A stretch of 64,000 nt of DNA from Nitrospirillum viridazoti CBAmc (GTDB lineage: Bacteria > Pseudomonadota > Alphaproteobacteria > Azospirillales > Azospirillaceae), in the NCBI RefSeq assembly GCF_000730165.1, contig NZ_CP022110.1:1495501-1559500 (forward strand), read 5' to 3'. Made by a program: the position numbers and the translations under genes. Of this stretch, positions 5,009 to 23,562 are shown piece after piece; position 1 is the stretch's first letter, and each line of letters begins with the position of its first letter. Under the pieces are notes generated by a model that was not told where the DNA came from, searched no databases, and saw only the letters and a program-made list of their open reading frames with translations.

Positions 5009-6559
5009 TCAGTGTCGGGCTGGGCCCGTGGCGGCGATCTCCGCCGCGCGCTGAAGCATGGCGTCGTCGGGCGTTTCGATCAACGGCGCCGGGATGGCGA
5101 TGTCCGGCGTCACCCCCCGGGGCCGCGTGTCGCCGTTGGGCCGCACGATGTGCGCCTTGGGAAAGCCCACGGTGATGCCGGTGGCGGGCAGGGTGAACCG
5201 TTCCATGGCGCCATAGGCAGTCGCCATGTCGGTGGTCGCCTCCCCCAGGACCTTGCCGAACCCATAGTCCTGGATGGTGGCGGCGACGGCCACCCCGTTG
5301 GAATAGGTGTGCCGGTCGATCAGGGCGTACACCGTGCCTTGGAACCGTCCGCCCGGATTGGGCTGTGTTTCCGGAAGGGTGAAGTCCACGACGGCGCCGG
5401 GATGGGCCGTGGCGTACAAATCGGCGAAGCGGCGGGAGATGGGGCCAGCCGCGACCGCGTCGTGCAGGATGCGGTCCTGGTTCGCCGTGACGGCGTCGGC
5501 GCTGACCCGTATCTTGAACGATGAAAAGAAGCGATAGGGCCGGTCGGCGATCCAGGAGACCATGACGTCGCTGAACAGGCTGTCGCCGCCGGGATTGCCG
5601 CGAAGGTCGATGATCAGACGGTGCACGTCCTTGGCCGCGAACATGCCGAAGGCGTTGTTGATGAACGTCCGGAACGCGGTCACATCCCACTCGTCCGCGC
5701 CGGTCTTGGCGGCCTCATTATAAAACGGGCCGGGGCGCAGATAGCCGACGCCATTGGCCAGGATCCGGGCGTCCCGCAGGGGATGCTCCAGGTCCAGGCG
5801 GGGCGGCTGCCGGCCGGCAACCGCTGCGATTTCCGATGCCGTTCGCGCGGCGACGTCAGTGTCGAATGCGTCGCCGTCGGCCGTCTTCACGCGGACCTTG
5901 AAACCGGACCGGGCGCCGGCTTCCACCCAGAGGTACATGGGGAAATCATATTCCAGGATGCTGTCCGCCAGCGCCGTCGTCTCGGCCGAGACATGAGCGC
6001 GCGTGCGCTCCAGCCAGCGTGCCGCCGGCACCCCGTCGATGGCCAGGATCTCACCGCCCCGGGGCAGATGTGGAACGTCGCTGAGATTGGCGGCGATATG
6101 GAGGCGGCCATCGCGGATGCGGACCATGAAGGGGAACGCGCGCCCCTCCGCCTTCCGGTAGGCCGCCCAGGCGCCGTAGACGCCCTCGACCCGTGCATGC
6201 CCCTGGTGGGCCATCGCCACGAGGCGTTGGAAGCGCGCCTCGGCCTCGCTGCGCGTCATGGGCCCCGTGATCCCCGCCCGCAGCGTCTGGTAGAGGCTGT
6301 CCATCTCCGCCTCAGGGGTGAAGGCGTAGAGGTCGAAGGCGTCGGCCTTCAACCGCTGATACAGCATGTCCAGGTCCGCCAGCACCTGGTCGGGGGAATA
6401 ACTGGCCTGGACGGCGGGCTGCGCGGTCGCCGGGGGAGGGACGAGCGCCAGGACGCCCGAGGTCAAGACGCCCAAGGCCAAGGCGCCCAAGGTCGAGCCA
6501 CAAAGAAGCGCCAAGGCCCGAACACGGCGCCCCATCAACATGCCGGAAGCGTGTCGCAT
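5009..6559 (-). CDS. Exported S41-family (C-terminal processing type) peptidase
   Basis: A 516-residue serine protease predicted to act outside the cytoplasm. Residues about 13-40 form a signal peptide or anchor ending near PPATAQPA. The C-terminal half holds the tail-specific protease fold with LIIDLRGNPGGDS (substrate cradle) and RHTYSNGVAVA, where the Ser of YSNGV is the expected nucleophile, followed by GKVLGE. The N-terminal half resembles the helical region of large S41 enzymes. The ATG at 6559 is preceded by GGGGGG and fits a signal peptide; the ORF upstream overlaps the promoter region. It is divergent from a MarR-family gene, and the palindrome at 6623-6632 between them suggests that regulator controls both. 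The substrate is unknown. Confidence 0.85.
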   Translation of the reverse strand: MRHASGMLMGRRVRALALLCGSTLGALALGVLTSGVLALVPPPATAQPAVQASYSPDQVLADLDMLYQRLKADAFDLYAFTPEAEMDSLYQTLRAGITGPMTRSEAEARFQRLVAMAHQGHARVEGVYGAWAAYRKAEGRAFPFMVRIRDGRLHIAANLSDVPHLPRGGEILAIDGVPAARWLERTRAHVSAETTALADSILEYDFPMYLWVEAGARSGFKVRVKTADGDAFDTDVAARTASEIAAVAGRQPPRLDLEHPLRDARILANGVGYLRPGPFYNEAAKTGADEWDVTAFRTFINNAFGMFAAKDVHRLIIDLRGNPGGDSLFSDVMVSWIADRPYRFFSSFKIRVSADAVTANQDRILHDAVAAGPISRRFADLYATAHPGAVVDFTLPETQPNPGGRFQGTVYALIDRHTYSNGVAVAATIQDYGFGKVLGEATTDMATAYGAMERFTLPATGITVGFPKAHIVRPNGDTRPRGVTPDIAIPAPLIETPDDAMLQRAAEIAATGPARH

Positions 6560-20623: not shown

Positions 20624-20679
20624 CGTTTGACGGTGGACGATTGACCGCGGGCGATTGACGACAGGCGGTTGACGGCGAC
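20624..20679. repeat. Four 14-bp tandem repeats carrying TTGAC
   Basis: Four consecutive 14-base units start at 20624, 20638, 20652 and 20666 with consensus CGATTGACGGCGGG. Each has TTGAC at the same phase (20627, 20641, 20655, 20669). The array begins ten bases after the rnc stop and ends about 45 bases before the M23 peptidase start. It could be a regulator-binding array, a set of -35-like sites, or a decaying minisatellite. Confidence 0.75.
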
Positions 20680-20725
20680 GCGTTGTGCGGCATCCTGCGG
20701 ATATTCCATACCGTCAGGGGCCGCC

Positions 20726-21901
20726 ATGCTTCGCTGCCGTCTCGCCCAGGTCCTTGTCGCCAGCGGAGTTCTGGCCGCCGCCTTCGGCGCCAATGCCGGT
20801 GCCAGGGCGGAGCCGGATGCCCATTCCATCACCCCCTTGGACATCCGGATCTTGCGCCCGGCCAGCGTGGTGCCGGCCACGGACGGCCGCCATCTGGTGT
20901 TCGAGGCGCTGATCAGCAACTTTTCCCCCGTGCCCATGACGTTGGCGACCGTGCGGTTGGGCACGGTGGCACAACCGGCCGCCCTGGCGCGATTCGAGGG
21001 CGCGGCCCTGACGGCTCTGCTGTCGCGGCCCGGCCGGCCGTCCGGTGACGGCCAGCCGCCGGTGACGATCATACAGGGCAATACCTACGCCGCCGCCCTG
21101 TTCGACGTGCATCTTGGCGATGATGCCGAGGTGGCGGATCTGCGGCTGGCGCTCACCATCGCGCCGTTCAAGCCTGACTTGCCCGACACCACGCTGAACA
21201 CGGCGGTCGCCGTCCCGCTGGACCGGGCGACGCCCGTCGTCGTCTCCGCCCCCGTCGCCGGCACGGGGTGGGTGGCCTTCAACGGCCTGTCCGCCACCTC
21301 CATACACCGGACCACCGTGATGGTGGTGGACGGGCAGGCGCGGGTGCCGGAGCGCTACGCCATCGACTTCATGAGGCTGACCGGGGACGGGCGGGAGTTC
21401 GGCGGAGACCAGGCGCGCAACGAGTCCTGGCCCGGCTATGGCCAGGCGGTGCTGGCCGTGGCCGACGGCGTCATCGAGAGCGTGCGCGACGGGTTTCCGG
21501 ATAACGTGCCCGGCCGGCCGCCGGCGCAGAAGGTCACGCTGGACACCATTGCCGGCAACCAGGTGGTCCTGCGTATGAAAGGGGGGGCGTACGCCTTCTA
21601 TGCCCATCTCATCCCGGGCAGCATCCCCGTGCGGCCGGGCCAGGCCGTGCACAAGGGCGAGGTGCTGGGCCGGCTGGGCAATTCCGGTCAGTCCGACGCC
21701 CCGCACCTGCATTTCCAGGTGGGCGATGGTGGGCATATCGCCGCCAGCGACGGCCTGCCGTTCGTCTTCGACGCCTTCACCCTGCTGGGGGTGGTGGCCG
21801 ATACGGCGGCGGCCGATGCGGGCGGCGCCTGGACACCAAGCCAGGCACCGCAGCCGCGCCACGGTCAGTTGCCGGCGGAAAACGCGGTCACCGGCTTCTG
21901 A
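20726..21901 (+). CDS. Exported M23-family (LytM-like) peptidase
   Basis: A 391-residue secreted protein: signal peptide to about residue 28, a beta-rich N-terminal half, and an M23 domain at about 210-350. The second metal site is intact (FYAHLIPGSI, then APHLHFQVGD), with GQAVHKGEVLGRLGNSGQSD typical of LytM domains. The first metal motif HxGxD is not canonical; the matching place reads RYAIDF, so the Asp is kept but Arg stands where His is expected. It may bind peptidoglycan or activate amidases rather than cleave, or belong to a subfamily with different ligands. ATG 20726 has AGGGG eight bases upstream. Confidence 0.85.
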   Translation: MLRCRLAQVLVASGVLAAAFGANAGARAEPDAHSITPLDIRILRPASVVPATDGRHLVFEALISNFSPVPMTLATVRLGTVAQPAALARFEGAALTALLSRPGRPSGDGQPPVTIIQGNTYAAALFDVHLGDDAEVADLRLALTIAPFKPDLPDTTLNTAVAVPLDRATPVVVSAPVAGTGWVAFNGLSATSIHRTTVMVVDGQARVPERYAIDFMRLTGDGREFGGDQARNESWPGYGQAVLAVADGVIESVRDGFPDNVPGRPPAQKVTLDTIAGNQVVLRMKGGAYAFYAHLIPGSIPVRPGQAVHKGEVLGRLGNSGQSDAPHLHFQVGDGGHIAASDGLPFVFDAFTLLGVVADTAAADAGGAWTPSQAPQPRHGQLPAENAVTGF

Positions 21902-21910
21902 CGGGCTGTC

Positions 21911-23311
21911 TTACAGGTTCTCGTGCGCGCCAGCCGCGCCACGCAGCCAATAGCCGGACGCCCGCATCCATTGCGCCGGGTGCTTGCGTTCCTCCAGCAC
22001 ATAGGCGCGCAGGGCCTTGGCCACGGTGGCCTCGGCGGCGATCCAGACATAGCCGTCGCCTGGCGGCAATTGGATACCCTCGACCGCCCGGCGCAGGGTC
22101 GCGGCGTCGTCCGTGCCCTGGCTGTCGCGGGTGACCCAGTGGGCGGTCCAGCGCGCCTTGGTCTCGATAGCCTGAATCTCCGCTGCGCTGTCGACGGCCA
22201 CCACGGTGTGGACCGGTACGCCCGGGCGCAGCTCCTCCAGCCGGCGGCCGATGGCGGGCAGGCCCGTCTCGTCGGCGACCAGCAGGTACCAGTCGAAATC
22301 GTCCGGCACGATCATGGAACCGCGCGGGCCGCCGATCTCCAGCGTGTCGCCCACCTTGGCGCCCAGGGCCCAGGCCGTGGCCGGCCCGGCGTCATGCAAG
22401 GCGAAGTCCAGGGTCAGGGTGCGGTCCGCCTGGCTGAAGGCGCGGGGGGTGTAGTCGCGCATCAGCGCCTGCCCATCCGGGCCGGGGAAGAACAGCTTGA
22501 TATGGTCATCGGCGCCGCGGCTGTCGAAGTCCGCCAACTCGGGCGAGGTCAGGACGATGCGCAGCATTTTGGGCGTCAGGTGGGTCACGCCGGTCACGGT
22601 CAAGGTGCGCCGCCGAGTGTCGAAGCGCATGCGGCCGATCTGATGGCGGGGGGTGTCGGTCATTCGGTCACCTAGGTCAGGTCTGTCGGGTTGAGGGGCG
22701 GGGACGGTTGGCCCGCCGTCCTTGGAGGGGGAGGGCGCCAGGATCTCCGCCGTGGCGCGCCGCAGGATGGCGGCCAGCCGGCGGGCCTCGGCGGCATCGC
22801 AGCCGCGCTTGCCGTAAAGGGCGGATTTCAGGGCATGGCGGGCCTGGTGCAGGTCCTCGGACGCTTCGGGATCGGCGTCAGTGACGCCGGCGAAGGCCTC
22901 GCGCACCTGATCCATGCGGCCGCCGATGCGGCGCAGGCCCTCCAGGATGGCGACGGCCGTGCCGCGGTGGCCTTCCAGGTGGGCGCGTCCGCTGTCGGTG
23001 ATGCGGTAGAGCTTGCGGTTGCCTTCCGGCTCCGCCGCCGCGTACCCGATCTCCGCCAGGAAGGTCAGCGCCGGGTATATGACGCCGGGGCTGGGGGTGT
23101 AGAAGCCGCCGGACTGTTCCTCCACGGCGCGGATCAGCTCATAACCATGGGCCGGCTTGCGCTCCAGCAGCGCCAGAAGCAGCAGTTCCAGGTCGGCGGA
23201 CGACAGCTTGCGGCTGCCGGGCATGCCGCCCCCGCCACCGCCCCAGAAGCCGCCGCCCCCGCCGAAACCGCCCCCGTGCTTCCAATGATGCCACCCGCCG
23301 CGCCCGCCCAT
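21911..23311 (-). CDS. PadR-family metal-sensing regulator fused to siderophore-interacting ferric reductase (NfeR-NfeF-like fusion)
   Basis: One uninterrupted frame joins two proteins that E. coli makes separately. From ATG 23311: residues 1-30 are Gly/His-rich (WHHWKHGGGFGG), like the nickel-binding head of NfeR/YqjI; about 31-170 are a PadR winged helix (ELLLLALLERKPAHGYELI, TPSPGVIYPALTFL); about 217-466 are a siderophore-interacting FAD/NADPH ferric reductase as in NfeF/YqjH (MRDYTPRAF, IGGPRGSM, LLVADETGLPAIGRRL, C-terminal YWLRG). An internal ATG at 22663 with AGGTGA five bases upstream could also start the reductase alone. The in-frame ATG at 23353 is less likely because it lies inside the operator palindrome and has no ribosome site. 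The presumed role is a repressor tied to the reductase it controls, in iron/nickel balance. Domain calls are firm; the regulatory role is inferred. Confidence 0.85.
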   Translation of the reverse strand: MGGRGGWHHWKHGGGFGGGGGFWGGGGGGMPGSRKLSSADLELLLLALLERKPAHGYELIRAVEEQSGGFYTPSPGVIYPALTFLAEIGYAAAEPEGNRKLYRITDSGRAHLEGHRGTAVAILEGLRRIGGRMDQVREAFAGVTDADPEASEDLHQARHALKSALYGKRGCDAAEARRLAAILRRATAEILAPSPSKDGGPTVPAPQPDRPDLGDRMTDTPRHQIGRMRFDTRRRTLTVTGVTHLTPKMLRIVLTSPELADFDSRGADDHIKLFFPGPDGQALMRDYTPRAFSQADRTLTLDFALHDAGPATAWALGAKVGDTLEIGGPRGSMIVPDDFDWYLLVADETGLPAIGRRLEELRPGVPVHTVVAVDSAAEIQAIETKARWTAHWVTRDSQGTDDAATLRRAVEGIQLPPGDGYVWIAAEATVAKALRAYVLEERKHPAQWMRASGYWLRGAAGAHENL

Positions 23312-23351
23312 GGCCAGGTAAAGGGGATGGGATGTCGTGTGATCGGAAAAC

Positions 23352-23377
23352 ATATCGTACGATATAGCGAACGATAT
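23352..23377. promoter_or_regulatory. PadR-type operator of the regulator-reductase gene
   Basis: A perfect 14-bp palindrome ATATCGTACGATAT (23352-23365) is followed by a further ACGATAT half-site (23371-23377). It lies about 40 bases upstream of the chosen start, as expected for an autorepression site. Confidence 0.65.
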
Positions 23378-23407
23378 GAAGCCGACAAGAGGGGGCCTGA
23401 AAAGAAA

Positions 23408-23440
23408 ACGCCCCGGCGGGCGAACCCGGCCGGGGCGTTT
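23408..23440 (-). terminator. Terminator of the glycerophosphodiesterase gene
   Basis: AACGCCCCGG and CCGGGGCGTT form a ten-base-pair stem. On the minus strand it is followed by GTTTTCTTTTC. It lies about 120 bases after the glpQ-like stop and upstream of the PadR-fusion gene. Confidence 0.8.
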
Positions 23441-23562
23441 CGTCGCGGTCTCTGAGTGGTCCAGGCCGGCGACCGCAGGCCCCAGAGATTTCTGGGGAGC
23501 GGCAGCGGACTGGAAATCAAGGACAAGCGGGCGGATGCCCGCGCCCGCCGTTTGAGGGAACC

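Follow-up and report, generated by a model that had tools for sequence, protein, structure and literature searches.

A PadR regulator and a siderophore-interacting reductase share one reading frame in Nitrospirillum, with a second set of such fusions in Rhodobacterales

We find that a PadR winged helix and an intact siderophore-interacting reductase (SIP) are joined in one reading frame in the window, by which we mean the whole 64-kb stretch of Nitrospirillum viridazoti DNA that was analysed. The padR-sip fusion gene lies at 21911..23353 on the reverse strand and reads from an ATG start to a TAA stop through 480 codons that hold no internal stop, as the first-pass annotation of this DNA had claimed; the same frame occurs in strains BR 12005 (L039) and BR 11880 (L040). 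Both parts and their pairing are already known, and the fusion is apparently new; no published description of a PadR-SIP fusion was found in a literature search judged by titles and the openings of abstracts, most subscription papers lying outside its coverage. The reading that we favour, at a probability of about 0.68, is a bifunctional, self-repressing fusion of the NfeR-NfeF type, in which repressor and reductase would be held at a fixed 1:1 ratio.

The protein opens with a head (residues 1-49; 23207..23353, reverse strand, like all parts of the gene) that is delimited by composition and by a structural model, with pLDDT below 50 for residues 1-46. It had been described at first reading as His/Gly-rich, of which the Gly part stands (19 Gly) and the His part is weak (5 His), and it contains no Cys. 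The PadR module that follows (residues 50-205; 22739..23206), delimited by Pfam, dN/dS and the model, comprises the winged helix and C-terminal helices. A linker (residues 206-235; 22649..22738; dN/dS and model), with pLDDT below 50 at 211-221 and 223-231, leads into the SIP module (residues 236-480; 21914..22648), which is defined by Pfam, dN/dS, family-conserved residues and the model. Pfam matches exceed their cut-offs for PadR (59-127), FAD_binding_9 (best stretch 293-346) and SIP (353-472), so that the pairing of winged helix and reductase first proposed from the letters alone is upheld. Among solved chains, the C-terminal half comes nearest to siderophore-interacting proteins and the N-terminal half, with a weaker match, to PadR proteins; in fold, too, the SIP half matches solved SIPs (4yhb_A, TM-score 0.83 normalised by the target). 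At every SIP column that is at least 90% conserved over 56 SIP rows, the window protein has the same letter; the conserved residues include R299, T302, R304, D361, E362, W406, R409, E441, Y468 and W469, and family-conserved residues are retained in both halves of the fusion. On the basis of domains over cut-off, SIP fold and conserved residues, we assign the C-terminal half to the SIP family, as a predicted ferric-siderophore reductase.

The kinship with Escherichia coli NfeR (YqjI) and NfeF (YqjH) that had been suggested for the two halves is borne out by comparison with the K-12 proteins: the PadR part is 32% identical to NfeR over its own residues 19-204, and the SIP part, in the same frame, is 36% identical to NfeF over its own residues 231-469. 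Both systems thus combine, in homologous halves, a PadR repressor with a head extension and a SIP-family ferric-chelate reductase. E. coli has two divergent genes and a His/Cys-rich head, which presumably binds nickel, whereas the window has one gene, a Gly-rich head with few His and a diverged putative operator. Repressor and reductase are separate proteins in the NfeR-NfeF module and share one frame here, and we therefore file the window fusion as a variant of that module. Deletion of nfeR in Klebsiella raised nfeF 85-fold, and repression by NfeR in E. coli was reported to be relieved by excess nickel (PMC7981267). A SIP domain fused to another function is also found in the mycobactin importer IrtA, where it is N-terminal (chain 7wiu_A, match at residues 12-247 of 859), but there the partner is an ABC transporter and not a regulator.

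The genome that holds the window measures 7.38 Mb in 4 contigs, and its closest named relatives are Nitrospirillum amazonense strains. Among the 82 genomes of the family sample, full-length single-frame matches occur only in this genome (G000) and in G061 and G059 (96% identity); the fusion is present in three of the seven genus genomes, the other four having separate frames for the two parts. The frame is 480 amino acids long in BR 12005 and 478 in BR 11880, and the agreement of three assemblies rules out a sequencing or assembly error at the joint; a stop or frameshift at about 22670, which the first-pass annotation had named as one result that would overturn it, is absent from all three. 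Where the genes are split, in L041, L042 and L043, the end of padR and the start of sip share four bases, ATGA. The fused genomes keep ATGA, but the padR frame arrives there shifted and reads the ATG as methionine, which would be explained by a net insertion, compared with L041, whose length is not divisible by three.

Both modules are under purifying selection. Across the three fused genomes, dN/dS comes to 0.011-0.035 in PadR residues 50-204 and to 0.11-0.14 in SIP residues 236-480. Linker residues 205-235 give 0.27-1.96 and contain neither indel nor stop; the low values in the modules and the high ones in the linker indicate that both modules are maintained and that the linker may vary freely. 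In the SIP tree the three fused Nitrospirillum genomes form a group (SH-aLRT 96), and in the PadR tree they stand in an open fork with the split BR 11622 (L014).

The surroundings of the gene differ between these strains. About 100 bases at approximately 23440-23560 of the window are common to the window and split BR 11622 (L042) and missing from fused L039 and L040 in an alignment read by eye. This distribution, upstream of the fusion, may reflect recombination or deletions that occurred separately. Some 2 kb away from the BR 11880 fusion there is a short SIP fragment (G061:C4:361545-361721; about 60 codons, 56% identity), perhaps left over from a duplicated copy. In BR 12005 (L039:4447-6839, compared with 20669-21911 of the window), three open frames separate the fusion from an M23-type peptidase frame; from a reading of their translations, they encode a flavin-nucleotide-binding-like protein, a second SIP-like reductase (5102-5872, reverse strand) and an AraC-type regulator. 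In the window, the peptidase frame comes directly after the fusion and this three-frame block is absent.

Fusions are rare in wider samples, for which few candidates per genome were scored and a fusion below threshold was counted as no match. Single-frame matches over both domains were found in 4 of 394 Rhodobacterales genomes; a further draw, which overlapped the first but used a different query and a more stringent threshold, gave 1 of 390. A sample of Alphaproteobacteria gave matches in 8 of 385 genomes at E 1e-45, the sole fused one being the window's own. For the class of a Stenotrophomonas, 10 of 321 genomes gave a match at E 1e-25, and for the phylum of a Myxococcus 53 of 174 were matched; neither set contained a stop-free row across both parts. 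Two genomes of the Stenotrophomonas class (G860 and G1388) have a row over both parts with one TGA inside, and at the Stenotrophomonas-type loci L098, L101, L102, L104 and L110 padR and sip share a frame and are separated by the padR stop, so that read-through would also yield a fusion there.

A search for other proteins with this domain order, which had been proposed as a check, revealed a second set in Rhodobacterales. In a collection of 153 loci, both parts were in one frame at 22 of the 134 with a SIP match, or at 12 once duplicates were removed, for the tree set, by SIP sequence. Eleven loci are intact fusions, three from Nitrospirillum and eight from Rhodobacterales, the latter being Pacificibacter marinus (L046), a MAG (L048), Pseudooceanicola nanhaiensis (L051), Donghicola mangrovi (L058), Mangrovicoccus sp. 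HB161399 (L062 and L078), Mangrovicoccus algicola (L113) and L127. The locus on plasmid pLA6_003 of Paracoccaceae bacterium La 6 (L149) has a SIP part identical to that of L127, and the plasmid's annotation gives it a single CDS, yqjH. A second copy in Donghicola mangrovi (L125) is a decayed fusion in which the winged-helix N-terminal part has been replaced by unrelated sequence; because of this loss it stands outside the intact count, and it is counted as fused in the SIP tree and its topology test.

The two groups of fusions do not trace back to one event. A single ancient fusion inherited by Nitrospirillum and Rhodobacterales is ruled out by AU tests on both halves, as one clade for all fused rows is rejected for the SIP half (12 rows versus 97, p 1.9e-45, 'quick' tree, with five weak rows, L024, L025, L026, L027 and L148, and one short row, L140, left out) and for the PadR half (11 rows versus 32, p 2.8e-54, 'careful' tree). 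The tests show, at the level of sequence phylogeny, that the fusions of Nitrospirillum and Rhodobacterales have separate origins. For the nine SIP rows of Rhodobacterales, a single clade is not rejected (p 0.54), although in the SIP tree a split gene, L075 of Celeribacter, forms a pair with the fused L046 (SH-aLRT 96); the history of this order may have been one gain followed by fission or several gains. The trees require at least five changes of the fused label, three of them forced by starred branches, counts from which gain and loss are indistinguishable.

Over the start of the window gene lies a putative operator, CATATCGTTCGCTATATCGTACGATATG (23351..23378, reverse strand), a 28-bp palindrome that is symmetric at 24 of its 28 positions by reverse-complement comparison, ends in the start codon and contains the box TATATC. 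A PadR-like palindrome overlapping the promoter had been noted before; it is operator-like and larger than then given. The promoter itself, read by eye, would run over 23361..23388 on the reverse strand, from TTGTCG (23383-23388) across 16 bp to TATATC (23361-23366). As bare symmetry the palindrome was dropped as evidence, since there are four comparable 28-mers in the window, one of them better; its meaning comes from conservation and placement. CATATCGTTCGCTATATCGTACGATATG has hardly changed in L039-L043, the five close genus members in the alignment, and L015 has mainly its 3' part. Furthermore, the 26-base operator pattern, allowing up to three mismatches, occurs at one place per genome in six of the seven genus genomes, and the reversed control pattern in none; this points to a regulator whose single target is its own gene. 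The TATATC box is -10-like and stands 8-13 bases before the ATG, where by eye a ribosome site is not visible, and this suggests that transcription starts from the ATG and yields a leaderless mRNA.

A second putative operator sequence, GATATATC, is frequent among the relatives. Its exact form lies upstream of 36 of 51 padR-sip units (0.33-0.39 expected from shuffles; 3/897 control windows from the same loci), and with one mismatch allowed it precedes 50 of the 51 (5.8 expected; 49/897 control windows), units that are not all independent because they include five close Stenotrophomonas loci, and from which duplicates were removed by list, with L018 and L152, copies of one unit, both left out. 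The exact form also stands upstream in 13 of 61 SIP loci without padR found nearby (0.05 expected; 1/1116 control windows; one duplicate, L144 of L044, among the 61), where 'SIP only' denotes absence of a padR match within about 2.5 kb of available stretch and contig ends or distant PadR proteins can hide one; these occurrences suggest that the SIP genes answer to a PadR whose gene lies elsewhere or escaped the search. GATATATC occurs twice in the nfeF-nfeR intergenic region of E. coli and was not found upstream of the decayed L125. The window and the other six genus members, which are among the 15 of 51 units without the exact sequence, have the one-mismatch form only, and in the window and its near kin this form sits inside the different 28-bp palindrome. 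Given the presence of GATATATC upstream of padR-sip units and in E. coli, the window palindrome may be its local, diverged form, the operator then being common to several phyla. Tandem padR-sip pairs, with the same two parts in the same order and on the same strand, are found in Nitrospirillum iridis, BR 11622, Azospirillum sp. B4, Tardiphaga, Myxococcota, Stenotrophomonas and others, and they carry exact GATATATC upstream in Tardiphaga, Myxococcota and Stenotrophomonas and the one-mismatch form in Nitrospirillum. Unlike the single frame of the window, these are two genes, several of them overlapping by ATGA or nearly touching.

The joint bears on how many products the fusion gene makes. An internal ATG (22661..22663, reverse strand) lines up with the ATGA at which padR and sip overlap in L041 and L043 and is probably the former start of the reductase gene; 4 nt before it, in all three fused Nitrospirillum genomes, stands the ribosome-site-like AGGTGA (22668..22673, reverse strand). 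The room for a reductase-only product that the first-pass annotation saw here is indeed present, since the old start is kept behind its AGGTGA, and the two activities may still be made apart. Use of this start would give a full-length autorepressor plus an excess of free reductase, so that the fusion frame would matter little; we consider this somewhat short of an even chance, and it could coexist with the self-repressing fusion. In its favour, the split genus members make two products, and a comparison of the joint across genera finds an ATG in 9 of the 11 intact fusion loci, with AAGGA or GAGG 6-8 nt upstream in four of the six Rhodobacterales fusions that have one. However, L048 and L058 have the ATG without such a motif, and between three genomes as close as the Nitrospirillum ones conservation of the internal start says little beyond common descent. 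At L046 and L051, moreover, the stretch that reaches from 51 codons ahead of the SIP core start to 13 codons past it holds no ATG, GTG or TTG (ATT and CTG not counted). The Pacificibacter and Pseudooceanicola reductases should therefore be made solely as fusions, unless translation begins at a rarer codon or proteolysis intervenes, and in these lineages the fusion by itself should be enough.

A further proposal of the first-pass annotation was that the flavin or iron state of the enzyme could gate DNA binding by the fused regulator. Trigger enzymes such as PutA likewise combine, in one chain, a flavoenzyme and a DNA-binding repressor of its own gene, a likeness that for the window fusion lies in domain content, with repression being putative. 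PutA is switched by its flavin state, and its folds are unrelated to those of the window fusion, for which our model does not suggest flavin switching. That model, an AlphaFold2 monomer prediction from 83 aligned sequences (pTM 0.59), contains a confident winged helix at about residues 51-140 and a confident SIP module at about 241-470, with the PadR C-terminal helices at block means of 63-80; no interface was found in the monomer by which the state of the flavin could act on DNA binding. The linker, of low confidence and fast evolving, is probably disordered, and the best reading of the model is a flexible tether between the parts rather than an allosteric hinge. The label of metal sensing is weak: the window head has its 5 His and no Cys in 49 residues versus 12 His and 7 Cys in 58 for E. 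coli NfeR, and the His count ranges from 0 to 8 among the relatives listed (heads of L048 and L127 not counted, as their alignments start too far downstream); nickel sensing should not be assumed. With a linker predicted to be disordered and a ligand-poor head, neither redox gating nor metal sensing is supported.

We regard a redox-gated enzyme, in which flavin reduction or the binding of ferric siderophore in the SIP part alters DNA binding by the PadR part, as improbable, even with a flavoenzyme fused to a DNA-binding domain that has a probable operator on its own promoter, with such fusions in two separate groups and with the precedent of Salmonella PutA, described as a proline dehydrogenase that also represses the put operon (PMC6978683). 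The broader form of this idea has the same low standing: a family of autoregulatory repressor-reductases of at least two origins, the sole form in Pacificibacter and Pseudooceanicola, in which the flavin or iron state of the SIP, or its substrate, controls the fused PadR. If it were true, the enzyme itself would be the sensor for its own gene. Slightly less improbable, but still unlikely, is a neutral accident, in which the parts came into one frame recently and to no functional effect, the joint being either tolerated or headed for decay. The absence of the fusion from four of the seven genus genomes and the decay of L125 would fit it, but the strong constraint on both modules, the separate fusions in at least seven Rhodobacterales genomes and a linker frame unbroken at dS 0.12-0.23, albeit a short time for a linker of 31 codons, speak against it.

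In the self-repressing fusion that we favour, the PadR part, acting as a dimer like others of its family, would bind the 28-bp putative operator over its own -10-like box and start codon and switch the gene off, and the SIP part would serve as an NAD(P)H- and FAD-dependent ferric-siderophore reductase. Release of the PadR part would follow a signal that may be nickel, as for NfeR, or else iron stress or a different metal; nickel is a guess, given a head poor in metal ligands. Repressor and enzyme would then rise together, at a fixed 1:1 ratio, until the repressor part closed the promoter again, while the retained internal start may supply some free reductase. The fusion would have arisen in the Nitrospirillum amazonense lineage from a padR-sip operon, through a frame-shifting insertion or deletion near the ATGA overlap.

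The regulator-target pair thus comes in four arrangements: two divergent genes, two overlapping genes, a fusion that has an internal start and a fusion that lacks one. This natural experiment lets one ask how the physical linkage of repressor and enzyme affects regulation. Through a seemingly shared operator, NfeR-type control of ferric-siderophore reductases, described in enterobacteria, is linked to Alphaproteobacteria and Myxococcota.
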